IMG/VR virus record: IMGVR_UViG_3300035070_002956
Coordinates: 1-23,999 of that record
Direction: 5' to 3' (one strand)
DNA length: 23,999 bases
From: a virus
In this document: positions 13,169-23,608 of the stretch, in pieces
How the letters are laid out: every line of letters starts with the position of its first letter
How positions within the stretch are numbered: the stretch's first letter is position 1
The notes under the pieces: model-generated
The model's database searches: none
Told to the model about the DNA's origin: nothing
The model's input: only the letters and a program-made list of their open reading frames with translations
Position numbers and translations under genes: made by a program

Positions 13169-14011
13169 TTATGCGTAAGGGTCTGGATTATATTCGGGCG
13201 TGAAACCTTGAGAATATGTGGGCATTTCGTGAAATTGTGGCTCTTGGAACAGAAGGCGACCAAGACACTCAATCATGTGGTCATCCTTGTCGAGCGTGGT
13301 CTGCTTCTTGCTGTGCTCCTCGGCACTGCGACCCTTCCACTCGGCCCAGCGATAATGCTCCATCTCCCAAATAAGCTGTGTACAAGTGTCGAAAATATAG
13401 ACTTCCGGCGCGCGTAGCATTTCGGATTGTCCGGGCAATTCTTGGTATGAGAGTGCGTCTTCAATGCGTTTGTCGGATTGTGAACGTGCCTTCGTTGCCT
13501 CAACATAATGAACACCGTATTCGCGCAGCCTACTCGCAAGGGATTTATTCGTATGCTGATCTTCAATCATTGCGGAAGGGTCAATGATATTTCGCTCCAT
13601 GCGGTACAGGCTGTTCTTTTCCTTCACGCGCGTTGCCAGCTCCTCTGTCCCATTCTGACATTTAAGCCATAGCTCATCACACACAAATTTCTGTCCCTGA
13701 CGATTGACTGCAAGCCATAGTCCTGCGTCATTCGTTCGGGGGTGAGGATCGAGCGCGTGATAGACCGTATAATCCGCCAAATTGACTTGGAATGGCCGAA
13801 TAACGTGGATTGATCGGCTGAATCGCTTGAATCGCAGACCAACCAAGTGCTGAAATTTACCCTCAATACGGGCATGTTTTTCTTCTTCCGTATACTGCGC
13901 GATCATGTTTTCAATGTGTGAGTGCTCCAAGTGTCCGCGCACCCCATGAATCTTGCAGGCAGCCTCCACATCGGCCTCAATGTGGGCGATTGTTTTAATC
14001 TTGTCTGACAT
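13169..14011 (-). CDS. terL: terminase large subunit, nuclease half
   Basis: 280 residues holding the linker and RNase H-like nuclease of a phage large terminase. Residues 36-65 (MIAQYTEEEKHARIEGKFQH) correspond to the usual ATPase-nuclease linker. The acidic active-site residues are D88 in YHALDPHPRTND, D144 in NIIDPSA and D243/D244 in LDKDDHMIE. The nuclease cuts concatemeric DNA at headful or cohesive-end packaging. The ATPase domain is absent here and lies in the separate gene just upstream, whose TAA is one base from this ATG. Expressed alone this protein would need the ATPase partner. The terminal segment (MPTYSQGFTPEYNPDPYA) may bind the portal. Split is natural, a +1 shift or a sequencing artefact; see findings. 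Confidence 0.8.
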   Translation of the reverse strand: MSDKIKTIAHIEADVEAACKIHGVRGHLEHSHIENMIAQYTEEEKHARIEGKFQHLVGLRFKRFSRSIHVIRPFQVNLADYTVYHALDPHPRTNDAGLWLAVNRQGQKFVCDELWLKCQNGTEELATRVKEKNSLYRMERNIIDPSAMIEDQHTNKSLASRLREYGVHYVEATKARSQSDKRIEDALSYQELPGQSEMLRAPEVYIFDTCTQLIWEMEHYRWAEWKGRSAEEHSKKQTTLDKDDHMIECLGRLLFQEPQFHEMPTYSQGFTPEYNPDPYA

Positions 14012-14012
14012 A

Positions 14013-14699
14013 TTATTTCTCTACTTCGGCGGCCTTATCTTTCTTGGCCACAATCTCATCAAACATCCATGCTGAACCGTTAAGAGGCGTTGCGGTAATG
14101 AAAAGAACCCCACCGGCACGCAAGCGAGAAATACACGCCTTATAGATCGGCTCCGTTGGCGGCTCATCGCACCAGATCCAGCCAAGCGTCGGGCCTTCAA
14201 ATTCTTTCGGGTCTTGCTCGTTGGTCATGATGTCAAACGTCCACCCATTGTCCATCTCCCATTGGCTATTGAATTGTTTGCCGCCCTTCGTCGCCTTATA
14301 GCGTCCAAGCGGTAGCCATTCTTCAAGCGTTGGAATCAGGTTTTTTACAATGTTTGACGCCTGCGAAACGACACGCCCGCGCTTTGGATATGGCCATTCG
14401 CGGTACAAAGGATAGTCAAACCATTTATTCTCTAGGTTGTCCTGTCCGAACATGATATTCGCAACCACATTGGCAGCCACGCATGTCTTCCCAACACCAT
14501 TGGCAGCAGAAAAGAAAACGACTAGGCGTTTGTCTTCGCCCACCTCGCGAATAAACTCCTCGCACTTCCCGTTCGGCTCATAAAACCGAAACTTCTCATG
14601 CAAAAGTCTGTATGCTTCCTCCTCTCGGAGTTCGCGAATAGTGCTCACAGGATCTTCCCCGAGCAATTCGCGCAATTCTGCTTCGTCGATCTCTGCCAT
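14013..14699 (-). CDS. terL: terminase large subunit, ATPase half
   Basis: 228 residues covering the packaging motor ATPase only. Walker A is AANGVGKT (65-72). Walker B with its catalytic acids is LGWIWCDE (172-179), and the coupling motif is TATP (202-205). The adenine-binding and Arg-finger region upstream fits a terminase and not another P-loop NTPase. The protein stops after WMFDEIVAKK and a short acidic tail, where a normal large terminase would continue into the linker and nuclease. Those follow in the next gene after TAATATG. It drives DNA translocation through the portal. It starts 2 nt after the peptide deformylase stop. Confidence 0.82.
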   Translation of the reverse strand: MAEIDEAELRELLGEDPVSTIRELREEEAYRLLHEKFRFYEPNGKCEEFIREVGEDKRLVVFFSAANGVGKTCVAANVVANIMFGQDNLENKWFDYPLYREWPYPKRGRVVSQASNIVKNLIPTLEEWLPLGRYKATKGGKQFNSQWEMDNGWTFDIMTNEQDPKEFEGPTLGWIWCDEPPTEPIYKACISRLRAGGVLFITATPLNGSAWMFDEIVAKKDKAAEVEK

Positions 14700-14701
14700 A
14701 A

Positions 14702-15223
14702 TTATTTAGGACTATCAAAAAAGATATTCTGACCATTACAATGATCGAATTCGTGTTGAAATACCTGTGAAGCTAAGCCGTCGAGCCAACGCGTACGTCG
14801 CTTGAGGCCCCAGAATCTACTTTTCACTCGATACGCGACCTTTATGCGGTCGAAGCGGTTAAGTCGCTTCTGGCGTCGATATGGGAACGATAAGCACCCC
14901 TCGGCGTATTCTTTTGCGTTTGGCTTCTTACCCAAAGAGCCATCAAGCATTTTTGCATCAATGTGATACGGCGCCTTCAAAATCTTTGGATTAATAATCA
15001 CGCGCTCCTTATAGCTTCCATCCTCAATAAGCGCCTGATCCACGACAAAGAAACTAAATGGGTTTTCACTCACCTGCGCATGTGCGAGGGCATATCCGGC
15101 ATTGTGGTGGCCGTGGAATCCTCGGCGATCAAGCATTTTCTTCATTTCTTCCGCATCTTGCTCGATTTGGGAATACCGGCGCACGCGTTCAGAAACTTTG
15201 TAATGGATTGGGATTATTTGCAT
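14702..15223 (-). CDS. def: peptide deformylase
   Basis: 173 residues, full length for the family. The three metal/catalytic motifs are all present: motif I as GYALAHAQ (43-50; family GxGLAAPQ), motif II as EGCLS (108-112) with the metal-binding Cys110, and motif III as HEFDH (157-161) with two metal-binding His and the catalytic Glu158. It removes the formyl group from the N-terminal Met of new proteins, in the cytoplasm. Motif I has lost two usual residues (Gly and Pro replaced by Ala), but the active-site residues are intact, so activity is likely. Deformylases are known from other phages; here it sits between the small terminase and the large terminase, an unusual place. It starts 3 nt after the 41-residue gene. 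Confidence 0.87.
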   Translation of the reverse strand: MQIIPIHYKVSERVRRYSQIEQDAEEMKKMLDRRGFHGHHNAGYALAHAQVSENPFSFFVVDQALIEDGSYKERVIINPKILKAPYHIDAKMLDGSLGKKPNAKEYAEGCLSFPYRRQKRLNRFDRIKVAYRVKSRFWGLKRRTRWLDGLASQVFQHEFDHCNGQNIFFDSPK

Positions 15224-17100: not shown

Positions 17101-17514
17101 TTAGTCGGAGCGGAAAACAACGATCATACTTGGAAAAGGAGCGCTATTAGCGTGGCCGCCAAACTTTAATCGACCTTTGATAAATCGTATTTCCGCCTTT
17201 CCATAAATGTAATCGTGAAACCACCGTGTATCTGTGCGAGCTGGCAGGAGACAAACCACCACGCCCCCCCTCGCTTCACTTGCCTTTTTAATCCAATGCT
17301 TAATTTCTCGTCCATATGGTGGATTCATAAATACTGACTCATTGTCCCATGACTGTATCAGCCCATGATCTTCTTTTGTGAAATATTTGGCACACTTCGC
17401 ATTATCTTTCGTCGCACATGGATCAAGTGTGAAATGATACTCATGATTTAATTCGTCAAAAGTATCTTGCGGCGTGGCCCATAGATCAGTTTTGCTTGAA
17501 AAGTGTACATTCAT
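17101..17514 (-). CDS. Dam-type DNA N6-adenine methyltransferase
   Basis: 137 residues matching the phage N-6-adenine methyltransferase family (Dam-like). Visible parts are LWATPQDTFDELN, the SAM-binding segment FTLDPCATKDNAKCAK (DPCA at 31-34), the catalytic NPPY (64-67), and the C-terminal PARTDTRWFHDYIYGKAEIR, FIKGRLKFGG and SAPFPSMIVVF. It transfers a methyl group from SAM to adenine in phage DNA, which can protect it from host restriction. It is short but complete. It starts by ATGA overlap with the preceding 88-residue gene. No partner nuclease is seen in the window. Confidence 0.88.
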   Translation of the reverse strand: MNVHFSSKTDLWATPQDTFDELNHEYHFTLDPCATKDNAKCAKYFTKEDHGLIQSWDNESVFMNPPYGREIKHWIKKASEARGGVVVCLLPARTDTRWFHDYIYGKAEIRFIKGRLKFGGHANSAPFPSMIVVFRSD

Positions 17515-19585: not shown

Positions 19586-19858
19586 TTAGATTTTTACAAT
19601 TGGTCTTATTTTTGACATGACATCGCTGCGCATGAAGCTACGCTCGCACTCTGGGCACTCTCCGCATTGATCCTCGCAGCCCTCGTGCCCCGCCACGGCG
19701 TCAGAAACGGTATAGAGCCACTTGCGGTCGCGTTCAGTGATAACTCGGCTTATAAGCGAGCACAGGTCGTTTTTCAGGTCTTCGGTAATTCCAGATTCTT
19801 TCAAAAGGTACAGGGCGCGGCGCTGCACTTCGTCGATCTGTTGTTCTGTTGTAAGCAT
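19586..19858 (-). CDS. hypothetical Cys-cluster protein, 90 aa
   Basis: First gene of the internal transcription unit that starts at the operator-bearing promoter. A helical N-terminal half (EQQIDEVQRRALYLLKESGI) is followed by a Cys cluster (GCEDQCGECPECERSF) with five Cys in 15 residues that could hold zinc. Proteins with an HEGCEDQCGECPECERSF-like end are often seen as small phage ORFs. No known function. Confidence 0.65.
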   Translation of the reverse strand: MLTTEQQIDEVQRRALYLLKESGITEDLKNDLCSLISRVITERDRKWLYTVSDAVAGHEGCEDQCGECPECERSFMRSDVMSKIRPIVKI

Positions 19859-19888: not shown

Positions 19889-19917
19889 AGTCTAATTCAA
19901 CGAGCGGTCGTTGTCAA
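19889..19917 (-). promoter_or_regulatory. operator-controlled promoter A, minus strand
   Basis: On the minus strand TTGACA (19917-19912, perfect -35) is followed by a 17-bp spacer and TAGACT (19894-19889, 4 of 6 to TATAAT). The spacer holds the palindrome CAACGACCGCTCGTTG (19913-19898; arms CAACGA and TCGTTG on the plus strand). It drives the 90-residue gene and the genes after it, about 30 nt before the ATG. A repressor bound there would block RNA polymerase. A TTATCCCCA (one mismatch to the DnaA box) lies at 19923-19931. Confidence 0.75.
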
Positions 19918-19932
19918 GTAAGTTATCCCCAC

Positions 19933-20472
19933 CTACCTTTTCAGCCAAATAATGTCGCCATCCATTTGTAAAAATGGATAATTTCTAGCCATATTCCGTA
20001 TTTTTACAGGCATCCGGTCTGATCCTCGGCGCGGGTTGATATAAACGGCGTACTTGGAAATATCCACGCGCTCCCCGCGCAATACGCGGTTCAAAATATC
20101 TCGCGTCCGGCTAGTCGGCTTCATGCGACGCATGTTTACCTTGAGCATGTGCATAGTCCTTGGCGATCCCTTTCCCGATCCAAATGGCGTCTTGCGTCCT
20201 CTACCGAGTCCGCGCGCCCGAAACTCTGCTTCTGTGCAAGTTCCCTTTATGAAATCGCACCGGATACAGGACACGGCTAAATTTTGCTCATTGTCGGCGC
20301 CACCTCGCGCAATAGGATTTTTATGATCCAAGCGCATCTCTTTCAGGTTAGCGATCAATGTTTTGCAATAGTAGCAAGTGTAATTTGCGGCTTTTAACAG
20401 GCTTGCGCGTTTTTCTGGCCCTAATCGCTTTCGGTCTTTCGGGTCGATAGTTCTTATTCCATTCCTCCACAT
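19933..20472 (-). CDS. HNH endonuclease
   Basis: 179 residues from MWRNGIRTID. This start is chosen because GAGGTG lies 6 nt before it, one of the few clear Shine-Dalgarno sequences in the window, and it follows the previous stop by 10 nt. The HNH core is CYYC (33-36), LDHKNPIARGGAD (D49-H50), NLAVSCIRCDFIKG (N64, C69, C72). The four Cys bind structural zinc and the DH/N residues form the ββα-metal active site. The family's usual 'CxxCN' Asn is Asp here. The C-terminal half (GRGRKTPFGSGKGSPRTMHM) is basic and may bind DNA. It may be a packaging cofactor, a recombination or a homing nuclease. It lies in the early operon, away from the terminase. Confidence 0.8.
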   Translation of the reverse strand: MWRNGIRTIDPKDRKRLGPEKRASLLKAANYTCYYCKTLIANLKEMRLDHKNPIARGGADNEQNLAVSCIRCDFIKGTCTEAEFRARGLGRGRKTPFGSGKGSPRTMHMLKVNMRRMKPTSRTRDILNRVLRGERVDISKYAVYINPRRGSDRMPVKIRNMARNYPFLQMDGDIIWLKR

Positions 20473-20482
20473 ACACTGCACC

Positions 20483-20944
20483 TCAACCGCTCCCAATATT
20501 TTTAGCAATCTCGCTAATGCTTTGCATACCTCCAGATCCATTGATATATCTCTGGCCACGCTCACCGGTTAAAAGCACCTTTACCTGCTCCCTGTCTTGT
20601 ATCTGCGCGTACTTCTCATTCCACTCATGAACACTTGGCACAACATCCATTGCCACCTCTGGGTAATAAAACGGGTCAATTCTTGCTTCTGGATTATTTA
20701 ACGCGTACCAAACGCCAAACCTTCGCACAGCCTTTGATCCATCGTGCAGAACACCGATTTCATGATCGTTGTCGTGTTCGCGTTTTAAATCCTCCTTCCA
20801 CATACCGGTAACATTTGAGAGGGTAATGACATTCCCCTGAATGACACTTGTCTTTTTTCCGGCGTTCATCGCTTGCAAAACGGCATCTGCCTCTTGCTGC
20901 GTGAGTTTCAATGAGTATCCTTCGATTGTTGTGAGTTTATACAT
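20483..20944 (-). CDS. hypothetical protein downstream of replication gene, 153 aa
   Basis: N-terminal half is a small beta/alpha unit (MYKLTTIEGYSLKLTQQEAD, VIQGNVITLSNVTGMWKEDL) and the second half is less regular (VWYALNNPEARIDPFYYPEV). No family recognised. It starts one base after the replication gene's stop and precedes the HNH gene by 10 nt, so it is likely co-expressed with both. Confidence 0.6.
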   Translation of the reverse strand: MYKLTTIEGYSLKLTQQEADAVLQAMNAGKKTSVIQGNVITLSNVTGMWKEDLKREHDNDHEIGVLHDGSKAVRRFGVWYALNNPEARIDPFYYPEVAMDVVPSVHEWNEKYAQIQDREQVKVLLTGERGQRYINGSGGMQSISEIAKNIGSG

Positions 20945-20945
20945 A

Positions 20946-21716
20946 TTAGCTTATAAATGCGACCTTATTTGGACTTTCTACTTGTTTTTTGTGATAGGCA
21001 CCGAGCTGCGCCCACTTTTCCTTAAGCTGATAAGGGGTTGTAATTATCGGGGCAAATTGATCCCCCTGTATTTGTGCGCAATATTCGATTGCCTTTAGCA
21101 CCTTTTCTTTTCCTAGTTGTTTAAGCATATACTCGATGGCTCCACGCTGCGTTTTATTGCCATAACTGATCGTTGGATTTAAACGCATCTGAAACGCTTC
21201 CAATATTTCATTTACATCATTTGACACTTTTGGCGCACCTTCTTCCGCGACGCTTGTCGTCGCAAGTGTAGCTACTGTAGCTTTCTTTATATTCTTATAT
21301 TTCTTTTCATTCTTTAGTATAGTGTCGACTTTGTTTCGACTTTGTTTCGACTGACGACCATTTTCTGTGTCGACTTTGACATCTGTGTAGTAGTTGTCTA
21401 ATTGCTGATAATAGCTATATCTATTGATTTTTACGATCATGCCGCGTGTCGACTTCTGTGTCGACAACATGTCGACTGATTTAGCCCATCTCAGAAATTT
21501 GTCCAATTGTCCCTTTGTGCAGCAACATGCTTGGCATATCCATTCATACTTTAGAAATAGCTCACCACGCTTTAGGCGCTTTGAATCTTGAAACGAGACG
21601 CGGTTAATAAGGTAAAACCAAATCTTGAACCATTTGTCCGGCTTATTGGCAAACACTTCGCTTTCAATAGTTTGCCTAGCCCATATTGTTGCGCCACCCT
21701 CTATCGGTAATCCCAT
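20946..21716 (-). CDS. DnaD-like phage replication protein
   Basis: 256 residues. The frame is open further upstream from a TTG, but I use the ATG at 21716 (MGLPIEGGATIWARQTIESE): it is the first ATG and its leader (TTTATTTTT) matches other genes. The N-terminal 110 residues resemble the winged-helix domain of phage replisome organisers: WARQTIESEVFANKPDKWFK, WFYLINRVSF, RGELFLKYEWICQACCCTKG, LDKFLRWAKSVDMLSTQKS, MIVKINRYSYYQQL. A Ser/Lys/Thr-rich linker follows. The C-terminal 80 residues (EILEAFQMRLNPTISYGNKT to YQLKEKWAQLGAYHKKQV) resemble DnaD-type C-terminal domains. It would bind the origin and load the host helicase. It is the first gene of the minus operon. Confidence 0.72.
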   Translation of the reverse strand: MGLPIEGGATIWARQTIESEVFANKPDKWFKIWFYLINRVSFQDSKRLKRGELFLKYEWICQACCCTKGQLDKFLRWAKSVDMLSTQKSTRGMIVKINRYSYYQQLDNYYTDVKVDTENGRQSKQSRNKVDTILKNEKKYKNIKKATVATLATTSVAEEGAPKVSNDVNEILEAFQMRLNPTISYGNKTQRGAIEYMLKQLGKEKVLKAIEYCAQIQGDQFAPIITTPYQLKEKWAQLGAYHKKQVESPNKVAFIS

Positions 21717-21738
21717 AAAAATAAACCACTTGATTGCA

Positions 21739-21771
21739 CCCACGTCTCGCCCTGCGAAACGCAGGCATGGG
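21739..21771 (-). promoter_or_regulatory. leader hairpin of the replication operon
   Basis: In the minus-strand 5' leader CCCATG pairs with CGTGGG (one U-G pair) outside, and CCTGCG pairs with CGCAGG around a UUU loop inside, with a 6-nt bulge GCGAGA on one side. It lies about 22 nt before the replication gene's ATG. It may affect translation or mRNA life, or be part of the origin. Confidence 0.5.
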
Positions 21772-21821
21772 TACAATTAAATGGTCTAAATTGCTACGGC
21801 GAGATCGTAACAAGCATCTAG

Positions 21822-21850
21822 ATTATATCATGCACAAAATTTCATAACAA
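21822..21850 (-). promoter_or_regulatory. promoter of the replication operon, minus strand
   Basis: On the minus strand TTGTTA (21850-21845) is followed by a 17-bp spacer and a perfect TATAAT (21827-21822). The 5' leader to the replication gene ATG is about 100 nt. The -35 overlaps operator B, so occupancy there should block this promoter. It diverges from the plus-strand promoter 21872-21900. Confidence 0.75.
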
Positions 21851-21860
21851 CCGCTCGTTG
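21845..21860. promoter_or_regulatory. operator B, 16-bp palindromic site
   Basis: TAACAACCGCTCGTTG matches the consensus CAACGACCGCTCGTTG at 13 of 16 positions and has its own inverted repeat ACAAC/GTTGT (21847-21861). It overlaps the -35 of the minus-strand replication promoter. The binding protein is not identified in the window. Confidence 0.7.
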
Positions 21861-21867
21861 TGGATAA
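21859..21867 (-). promoter_or_regulatory. perfect DnaA box
   Basis: TGTGGATAA on the plus strand is TTATCCACA on the minus strand, the canonical DnaA box. It overlaps the right end of operator B, in the divergent gap next to the replication gene. It suggests that host DnaA may act at a phage origin here. Confidence 0.5.
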
Positions 21868-21871
21868 GTCT

Positions 21872-21900
21872 TTGCAAACGACCCCTTGTTGTGTAATAAT
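21872..21900 (+). promoter_or_regulatory. operator-controlled promoter C, plus strand
   Basis: TTGCAA (21872-21877), a 17-bp spacer, then AATAAT (21895-21900, 5 of 6) with an extended TGT just before it. The spacer contains AAACGACCCCTTGTTG (21876-21891), a 13-of-16 match to the operator consensus. The architecture copies promoters A and D. It drives the 52-residue gene and perhaps all the plus operon. Confidence 0.7.
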
Positions 21901-21929
21901 AGGCCGGAGCACTTAATTTAAAAATATTT

Positions 21930-22088
21930 ATGAAAGACGAAACGATCAGTAGGGTTATGCGAAAAGTCGGAAGCCTTGGGGGAAAGAAAACGGTGTCAAA
22001 ATACGGAGCTGGACACATGAGTGAGCTAGGAAAAAAGAGCGCGGCAAGAAAAAAGGAATTGCGAGATAAAGCAACGAAATCAGCATAA
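21930..22088 (+). CDS. small basic KGG-like protein, 52 aa
   Basis: MKDETISRVMRKVGSLGGKK followed by TVSKYGAGHMSELGKKSAAR and a Lys-rich tail ending ATKSA. The Gly-Gly-Lys and 'KYGAGHMSELGKKSA' units recall KGG-type stress-protein repeats and small DNA-binding phage proteins. It is the first gene after promoter C, about 30 nt downstream. Very basic, so nucleic-acid binding is plausible; its size makes a repressor less likely. No Shine-Dalgarno. Confidence 0.7.
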   Translation: MKDETISRVMRKVGSLGGKKTVSKYGAGHMSELGKKSAARKKELRDKATKSA

Positions 22089-22095
22089 AGCACAC

Positions 22096-22104
22096 TTTTC
22101 CACA
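22096..22104 (+). promoter_or_regulatory. DnaA-box-like site
   Basis: TTTTCCACA fits the relaxed DnaA consensus TTWTNCACA. It lies 10 nt before operator D, as a similar site lies near operators A and B. Confidence 0.35.
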
Positions 22105-22111
22105 CCCATGC

Positions 22112-22140
22112 TTGCAACGACCGCTCGCTGGTGATATGCT
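22112..22140 (+). promoter_or_regulatory. operator-controlled promoter D, plus strand
   Basis: TTGCAA (22112-22117), a 17-bp spacer, and TATGCT (22135-22140) with an extended TGA. The spacer carries CAACGACCGCTCGCTG (22115-22130), 15 of 16 to the operator consensus. The -10 overlaps the perfect palindrome ATGCTAGCAT (22136-22145). It drives the second plus transcription unit with the recombination genes. Confidence 0.75.
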
Positions 22141-22182: not shown

Positions 22183-22329
22183 ATGTTCACTACTATTGCG
22201 GACACAATCCGCGAAATGGAGGAAGCCGAAGCCTTGAGTGCGCAAGGAAATCCCGTAGCCGCCCTAGAGCTTTTGCTTGGTACACAGACCCCACACATAA
22301 TTCACGAACGACACGAAAATACCGTATGA
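22183..22329 (+). CDS. small hypothetical protein, 48 aa
   Basis: MFTTIADTIREMEEAEALSA followed by QGNPVAALELLLGTQTPHII and a short polar tail. One helix (REMEEAEALSAQGNPVAALE) resembles a TPR-like turn. Its TGA overlaps the next ATG (ATGA), a sign of coupling. It is first after promoter D. Function unknown. Confidence 0.65.
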   Translation: MFTTIADTIREMEEAEALSAQGNPVAALELLLGTQTPHIIHERHENTV

Positions 22330-22694
22330 AAGAAGTTATCGAGCTTCAAAAGATCAAGGCAGAGATCAAGAAACTGCAAGCGCGCGAAGATGAGCTAAAA
22401 GGAGAAATCCTTGTATGGATGAAGAAGCCAGAGCATAAGGGTGCAACCAAGATTCAGACTCCGTACGGGAACATTTCCCTAAGTGCGCGCAAAAAGTTCC
22501 GCTATACCGGAGACGTAGACATGATGGCCGAACAGCTTAAAATGGAAAAGGTTCTCCAAGAGAAAGTGGCCGTGAGCCGCGAGCAATGGATCGAGCTTGG
22601 TCGACCTAGCGACGTGCCGGTGTACGAAGTAACCGAGTTCCTGACCGTGACCGAAGCAAAACAAAATAAAGAGGAAAACATAATAAAAGCGTAA
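22326..22694 (+). CDS. coiled-coil protein of the recombination module, 122 aa
   Basis: N-terminal coiled coil (LQKIKAEIKKLQAREDELKG), then a conserved-looking core (KIQTPYGNISLSARKKFRYT) and an acidic end. The 'T.YGxxSxxxRKxxxYT' pattern resembles small phage proteins found beside ERF, RecT or SSB genes, in the manner of Gp157/Gam-like factors, but I cannot assign one. It is coupled to the 48-residue gene and lies 5 nt before the ERF gene. Confidence 0.6.
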   Translation: MKEVIELQKIKAEIKKLQAREDELKGEILVWMKKPEHKGATKIQTPYGNISLSARKKFRYTGDVDMMAEQLKMEKVLQEKVAVSREQWIELGRPSDVPVYEVTEFLTVTEAKQNKEENIIKA

Positions 22695-22699
22695 AACAT

Positions 22700-23608
22700 A
22701 TGGTAAAGCAAGCAAAAAAGATCAAACAAGTGAAGGCAGAGGTGATTGAGACGACCGCGATTGAAGTGCAACACCCAACAGAGCCGGCTTCGATCCAAAT
22801 GACACAAAGCGCCGATCAGTTGATCGCACAAGCAATCGACAAGGGCGTGTCGGTTGATACGATGGAAAAGTTGCTCGCCATGCGCCGTGAGTTGAAAGCC
22901 GAATGGGCGCTTGAACAATTCAATGCAGCAATGGCTAAATTCCAAGGCGAGTGTCCAATCATTGAAAAAAGAAAGGAGGTAAAAGACAACTCCGGCAAGG
23001 TACTCTACCGATACGCACCACTTGATGATATTAACGAGCAGACGAAGGAGATAATTGCCAAAAACGGATTTTCTCATGCTTGGGACACGGAGGAGGATGG
23101 AAATACAATCACCATTCTTTGTACTATCACCCACATCGCGGGACACAAAGAAGTCAGTCGCCTTAAGCTTCCAAGCAGCGGAGGTACTTCGATCATGTCC
23201 GGTCCTCAAAAGGTAGCGGCCGCTCTCACGTTTGGAAAGCGATATACATACTGCGATGGGTACGGGATCATGACAGGGGATGAAGATGTTGATGCGGCAA
23301 AGGATATCGTAGAGCCACCACATGCGCCGGTGGCTAAGCCAGCGCCAACGGTAGTGCCAAAGAAAACGGAAGTACCGCCCGCAAAAATCATGGTGACAGA
23401 AGAAAAGATTATTTCCGATTTATTCTTCCAGTTAGAAGTTGAGCCAAGCGTCCAAAAGGCGTGGATATTCCAGACAAATCGCGTAGACAATATTTCTGAC
23501 CTTACGAGCGCACAAGCGCAGACCATTATTCAGGCGCTCAAAGCAAAGGTTCAGCAACGCAAGGACGAAGAAGCCAAGAACGCCAACGTAATCGAAGTGA
23601 AAGAATAA
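22700..23608 (+). CDS. ERF-family single-strand annealing protein
   Basis: 302 residues. The ERF core (about 55-200) is seen in EQFNAAMAKFQGECPIIEKR, VLYRYAPLDDINEQTKEIIA, then ILCTITHIAGHKE and KVAAALTFGKRYTYCDGYGI. These are the family's signature: 'Y.YA.l..i...'; a central beta sheet; 'A.TYGKRYtl...gi...DeDdd'. The N-terminus (1-35) is a Lys-rich extension and the C-terminus a charged/coiled tail. It anneals complementary single strands in phage recombination and circularisation. It is next to SSB, a usual partner. Confidence 0.87.
   Translation: MVKQAKKIKQVKAEVIETTAIEVQHPTEPASIQMTQSADQLIAQAIDKGVSVDTMEKLLAMRRELKAEWALEQFNAAMAKFQGECPIIEKRKEVKDNSGKVLYRYAPLDDINEQTKEIIAKNGFSHAWDTEEDGNTITILCTITHIAGHKEVSRLKLPSSGGTSIMSGPQKVAAALTFGKRYTYCDGYGIMTGDEDVDAAKDIVEPPHAPVAKPAPTVVPKKTEVPPAKIMVTEEKIISDLFFQLEVEPSVQKAWIFQTNRVDNISDLTSAQAQTIIQALKAKVQQRKDEEAKNANVIEVKE

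Follow-up and report, generated by a model that had tools for sequence, protein, structure and literature searches.

Four copies of a 16-bp near-palindromic operator lie at early promoters of a podophage from uncultured bacteria, and the core of this operator, likewise placed in promoters, is found in a second phage lineage that is unrelated to it as judged from their proteins. Our leading reading, which we hold tentatively, is that a single dimeric repressor of early promoters, acting in trans, would use all four sites as its operators, a host origin of this repressor being slightly favoured. The window analyzed here comprises an entire IMG/VR record (23,999 bases).

We searched both strands of the window with the 16-mer CAACGACCGCTCGTTG, allowing up to three mismatches. 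Exactly four places were found, corresponding to six strand-matches against 0.18 expected, and none of 100 shuffled windows reached six. All four are intergenic, although non-coding DNA makes up only 6.45% of the window (coding share 93.5%). This confirms the four copies of the original prediction, which had feared sites of equal score scattered in coding DNA; coding matches appear only when the search is relaxed to four mismatches, which adds three places, every one of them in coding DNA. The earlier mismatch counts hold for A (perfect), C (13/16) and D (15/16), whereas B had been given as 13/16 and actually matches 14/16. The operators and the promoters that they occupy are as follows.

19898–19913, minus strand: operator A, perfect CAACGACCGCTCGTTG; with flanks TTGACAACGACCGCTCGTTGAATTA
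19889–19917, minus strand: promoter A, −35 TTGACA at 19917–19912, 17-bp spacer, −10 TAGACT at 19894–19889; 10/12 match to consensus
21845–21860, plus strand: operator B, TAACAACCGCTCGTTG, 14/16, two mismatches
21822–21850, minus strand: promoter B, −35 TTGTTA at 21850–21845, 17-bp spacer, −10 TATAAT at 21827–21822, with a TG extension
21876–21891, plus strand: operator C, AAACGACCCCTTGTTG, 13/16, three mismatches, 31 bp from B
21872–21900, plus strand: promoter C, TTGCAA at 21872–21877, 17-bp spacer, −10 AATAAT at 21895–21900
22115–22130, plus strand: operator D, CAACGACCGCTCGCTG, 15/16, one mismatch
22112–22140, plus strand: promoter D, TTGCAA at 22112–22117, 17-bp spacer, −10 TATGCT at 22135–22140, read by eye

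As originally described, the operator sits in the spacer at A, C and D, and at B it overlaps the −35 of a promoter with a perfect TATAAT. Promoter A, whose 17-bp spacer is occupied by operator A, heads a minus-strand unit starting at 19858 that encodes a 90-aa CxxC protein and then a 264-aa coiled-coil-like protein. Promoter B serves the unit of the DnaD-like replication protein and an HNH protein. Promoter C leads the 52-aa ORF at 21930–22088, and promoter D leads a 48-aa ORF followed by Gam-like, ERF and SSB genes. The main genes of this region are listed below.

20946–21716, minus strand: DnaD-like/O-like replication protein; the ORF is open to 21776, but the in-frame ATG at 21716 agrees better with homologues
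21930–22088, plus strand: 52-aa basic KGG-like protein, the first gene behind operators B and C
22326–22694, plus strand: Mu Gam-like protein
22700–23608, plus strand: ERF annealing protein; SSB is next, from 23623

In a scan for consensus promoters, A and B were the top two minus-strand matches, C was listed and D was not. The region-wide scan found 18 promoters against 12.2 by chance, so the −35 and −10 calls are weak on their own; the presence of the operator is what makes them credible. The reading of the four sites as a chance resemblance or an assembly artefact could draw on the imperfect matches of B (14/16) and C (13/16). It is already refuted by the counts of strand-matches and their intergenic positions, as well as by the independent recurrence in three other phages described below, and the four sites are real. 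The window carries a repeated near-palindrome overlapping early promoters, as in a phage early operator–repressor regulon. The spacer is a usual place for a repressor to bind, and this placement leads us to infer repression by occlusion. Sitting in the spacer, or covering the −35 in the case of B, a repressor dimer would keep RNA polymerase off all four early promoters, so that the replication unit, the recombination genes (Gam, ERF, SSB) and the early minus-strand unit would be held back jointly until repression ends.

To look beyond the window, viral contigs were scanned with the 16-mer pattern YAACRACCGCTCGTTG. This returned 28 stretches, which we judge to be about the chance yield for so large a collection. 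Of these, 27 lie inside open frames without promoter context. The exception, L022 in phage G035, reads TTGACAACGACCGCTCGTTGAATTACAGT and is identical to site A at 25 of 25 positions, covering the −35, the operator and AATTA (G035:1517–1541); it sits directly upstream of a gene. G035 is a podophage of 65% G+C with a weakly P22-like portal, and by tblastn and tblastx its proteins and those of the window share only an HNH resemblance, on which basis we consider its lineage unrelated to the window phage. Two relatives were found by portal, G418 (92% identical) and G419 (77%). Side observations in G035 are an ArdC-like antirestriction protein with an IrrE/M78-like part (230–1093) and a lone ParA (33877–34530; L134 and L135, respectively), both in a podophage without a recognized integrase.

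The exact 12-base core ACGACCGCTCGT occurs five times in G035, five times in G418 and twice in G419, where about 0.023–0.025 would be expected per genome. In 11 of the 12 cases a TANNNT −10 lies 1–5 bp downstream of the core, on one strand (local background 3.1%, p ∼3e-16). Several of these −10 elements are followed by an ATG 6 or 7 bases further on, a distance resembling that of leaderless transcripts. Between orthologous promoters of the lineage the core is 10–12/12 identical, while the 40-bp flanks mostly agree at only 7–21 positions; the one upstream flank with 35/40 agreement is itself coding DNA. All 12 exact cores and all four window sites are at promoters, and the sites are focused in promoter regions of two unrelated phage groups. 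Early genes of the window phage and of the G035 lineage are therefore probably under the control of one regulator, which supports the earlier claim of one regulator for several early promoters.

Looser patterns (TTGACAACGAN4TCGTTG; core plus −10; core plus −10 plus ATG) matched only G035, G418 and G419 among the viral contigs, apart from chance coding matches and one isolated possible exception. This is L183:6295–6326, a lone perfect palindrome AACGAGCGCTCGTT ahead of a −10-like hexamer and an ATG, with a symmetric centre and in a single copy. A BLAST search of phages and plasmids with the 30-bp promoter gave a Paraburkholderia match, rejected because it lies within a tniQ-like frame, and matches in Rhizobium, Pseudomonas and Haladaptatus, rejected because they overlap open frames or annotated genes. 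A literature search with the operator letters gave no match.

Most sites of the G035 lineage have no recognizable −35, and the palindrome abuts the −10. In T4, the MotA box takes the place of the −35 element and serves as an activator site, and the palindrome could likewise mark activated early or middle promoters. We regard this as improbable. In the window, at G035:1523 and at G418:775 the palindrome overlaps or adjoins a −35 that is good or perfect, and it lies within the spacer with a gap to the −10 that varies from 1 to 6 bp.

The core is never perfectly symmetric. Positions 5 and 8 both carry a C (a G when read on the opposite strand) in all 12 exact cores and in 4/4 window operators, which breaks the palindrome by one off-centre mismatch in every core. 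The symmetric versions ACGACCGGTCGT and ACGAGCGCTCGT were found in none of the four genomes (window, G035, G418 and G419). The binding protein seems to prefer, or need, an asymmetric centre. The orientation of the mismatch flips between the orthologous sites G035:29128 and G418:29015, suggesting that the site is used as a near-palindrome.

The structural genes of the window (portal, adaptor) resemble those of SU10-type podophages. Portal relatives, G001, G004, G005, G006 and G007 among others, are 50–64% identical; none was found in the phage collection. Among genome bins, portal relatives were found in one Verrucomicrobiota MAG and in two MAGs of Patescibacteria; as to the host, this is no more than a hint. 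A complete-looking relative, G004, is 38.9 kb long, and its terminase nuclease gene runs past the end of the record as if the genome were circular. Hence, ∼15 kb, about a third of the genome of the window phage, is probably missing from the contig.

A number of other genes were seen in this group. The large terminase of the window is apparently split into separate nuclease and ATPase ORFs (13169–14011 and 14013–14699), an arrangement suggested also in G001, G004, G005, G006 and G007. It is adjoined by a peptide deformylase gene (14702–15223) with homologues in G001, G004, G005 and G006. A Dam-type N6-adenine methyltransferase gave a family match, its position (17101–17514) being inferred from the sequence. 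In G004 an 80-aa protein (L084:2666–2908) has a sub-threshold match to the Acb2/Tad1 hairpin (E = 1.7e-5) and is a possible anti-CBASS sponge.

The motif was not found in the portal relatives or at 32 loci of replication protein homologues beyond isolated places with three mismatches. The original prediction had asked for conservation in relatives, and this absence, taken alone, would have spoken against it; the motif is instead conserved in the unrelated G035 lineage. When the non-coding DNA of 12 virus records and three MAG contigs was scanned generically for palindromes that are repeated and not AT-rich, the window and G006 stood out, together with one weak overlapping case in G038:C12. The palindrome of G006 is of the CTATCGATAG type and occurs at six sites against 0.25 expected.

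L092 of G006: CTATCGATAG sites at 17122, 19502 and 19513
L093 of G006: CTATCGATAG sites at 2399, 2413 and 4874

Three of the six sites lie 2 bp upstream of −10-like hexamers. Two pairs have 11-bp spacing, and one pair is within a rep-like gene, beside AATCATA repeats. As G006 carries its own palindrome family at early promoters, this phage group also contains the design in a version with a different sequence.

As an alternative, the original prediction had proposed a family of iterons to which the DnaD-like replication protein binds; DnaA might take part as well. Sites B–D do lie between the replication gene and the recombination genes, and two of only three TTWTNCACA boxes in the whole window lie within ∼10 bp of operators B and D. 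Two DnaA-box-like sequences and one repeat cluster are relevant here.

21859–21867, minus strand: DnaA-box-like, perfect TTATCCACA, overlapping the edge of operator B
22096–22104, plus strand: DnaA-box-like TTTTCCACA, 10 bp upstream of operator D
21321–21479, minus strand: (T)GTCGAC(TT)-type repeat cluster, GTCGACTT, inside the replication gene

Because DnaA-box-like sequences overlap B and lie close to D, the stretch from B to D may in addition belong to an origin of replication. As iterons, however, the operators are very improbable. Their spacing (1947, 31 and 239 bp) is irregular over 2.2 kb, mostly with one site per promoter, rather than that of a regular repeat; the same sites recur in G035, where the replication protein has no homologue, and they do not accompany that protein at the 32 homologue loci. 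The replication gene moreover carries its own internal repeats. These GTCGACTT repeats are better iteron candidates than the operators, and the cluster is a candidate lambda-O-like origin.

No repressor gene had been noticed in the window, and family searches against Pfam and PHROGs, which are blind to repressor families outside these collections, agree. Known repressor or integrase families were recognized in none of the 36 window ORFs, and none (including HTH repressors) in 50 ORFs of G035, in selected ORFs of G418, G419 and G006, or in the early region of G004. By eye, RHH-like ORFs were seen in G006 (L093:657–980) and G035 (39061–39285 and 39998–40198), but none matched a family significantly, the only Pfam match being RHH_5 (E = 0.011) for one ORF. 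PDB sequence searches gave no regulator, the 90-aa protein of the window matching only a short zinc-finger stretch, and AlphaFold models of this protein (pLDDT 60.5) and of an LGG...ARW protein of G419 (pLDDT 57.5) were too poor for structure search.

The genes first behind the operators are small and of early type. G035, G418 and G419 each have one operator before an LGG...ARW gene or operon and another before a basic protein of 46–53 aa. The 52-aa KGG-like protein of the window bears only a loose likeness to the LGG...ARW proteins of the G035 lineage, and we rejected homology because the similarity is too weak. A protein of the 52-aa KGG-like or LGG...ARW type is nevertheless a candidate autoregulator.

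The same regulon could be run by a repressor encoded by the phages themselves, of lambda or RHH type (for immunity or Cro-like), located in the missing ∼15 kb of the window phage and being an unrecognized small protein in the G035 lineage. We consider this a serious possibility, if somewhat less probable than our leading reading. About a third of the genome is missing, judging from the 38.9-kb relative, the RHH-like ORFs offer candidates, and the separate CTATCGATAG family of G006 looks as if related phages differ in repressor specificity. Against it, the searches above gave no confident repressor, and two unrelated lineages would each have to acquire one and then evolve 4–5 scattered operators. 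For our preferred reading, a repressor supplied in trans, the slight preference for a host-encoded protein over one in the missing third rests on the two unrelated lineages sharing an identical operator in non-homologous promoters, and on neither lineage encoding a recognizable repressor. Each lineage would then have evolved its sites independently toward a factor already present in its hosts.

We looked for a host regulon in the groups whose MAGs contain portal relatives, which may not be the true hosts. In Patescibacteria the core had 14 exact matches in 380 genomes, rarer than the reversed control, and in Verrucomicrobiota core plus −10 was found in 0/115 genomes. The motif is thus not enriched in promoters of these two groups, which counts against a host factor. 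A host factor is also unnecessary if the repressor lies in the missing ∼15 kb, and the distinct G006 palindrome fits a phage-encoded immunity specificity equally well. A more far-reaching reading, in either of two forms, is in our opinion rather unlikely: unrelated podophages may have independently borrowed the near-palindromic ACGACCGCTCGT site, perfect symmetry of which would not be tolerated, of a host factor widespread in some uncultured bacterial group, with which these lytic-looking phages would time their early genes; or a new class of small basic regulator of the LGG...ARW/KGG-like type may be encoded directly behind the operators of both lineages.

In lambda, the OR and OL operators of CI and Cro are palindromic sites in spacers of early promoters facing both ways. 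The operator described here likewise fills the spacer of early promoters facing both ways, but instead of triple tandem operators there are mostly single sites, spread over four promoters, and no adjacent repressor gene was found. To our knowledge the operator matches no LexA box, and the literature yielded no helpful LexA motifs for other phyla. Phage GIL01 is repressed by LexA of its host (PMC4551915), and our model would similarly have a trans-acting host repressor on phage early promoters. Cluster A mycobacteriophages have stoperators, several genome-wide sites for one repressor, which are asymmetric and also act in elongation (PMC6550527, PMC9283540). Our model shares with them one repressor with multiple sites; unlike stoperators, which also lie inside transcription units, every accepted site here is at a promoter. 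Sites for host CtrA evolved independently in promoters of unrelated alphaproteobacterial phages (PMC9437464). Here too the apparent sites of one regulator are concentrated in promoters and would have arisen separately in unrelated lineages. CtrA itself and the motif that it reads in its host have been identified and tested, whereas here a 12–16 bp near-palindrome is known from sequence alone.

Taken together, the operator is a new specificity within a known kind of phage early-gene control, and the evidence that unrelated phages share it is unusual. Sequence alone thus gives an operator whose regulon can be measured in two groups of uncultured phages that are unrelated to each other, the G035 lineage contributing 12 exact copies, and DNA pull-down offers a direct way to the regulator. 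Should the regulator be a host protein, phages would here, as with CtrA and LexA, be using borrowed sites to read a signal of the host, and the motif could then help to trace the hosts of these phages.
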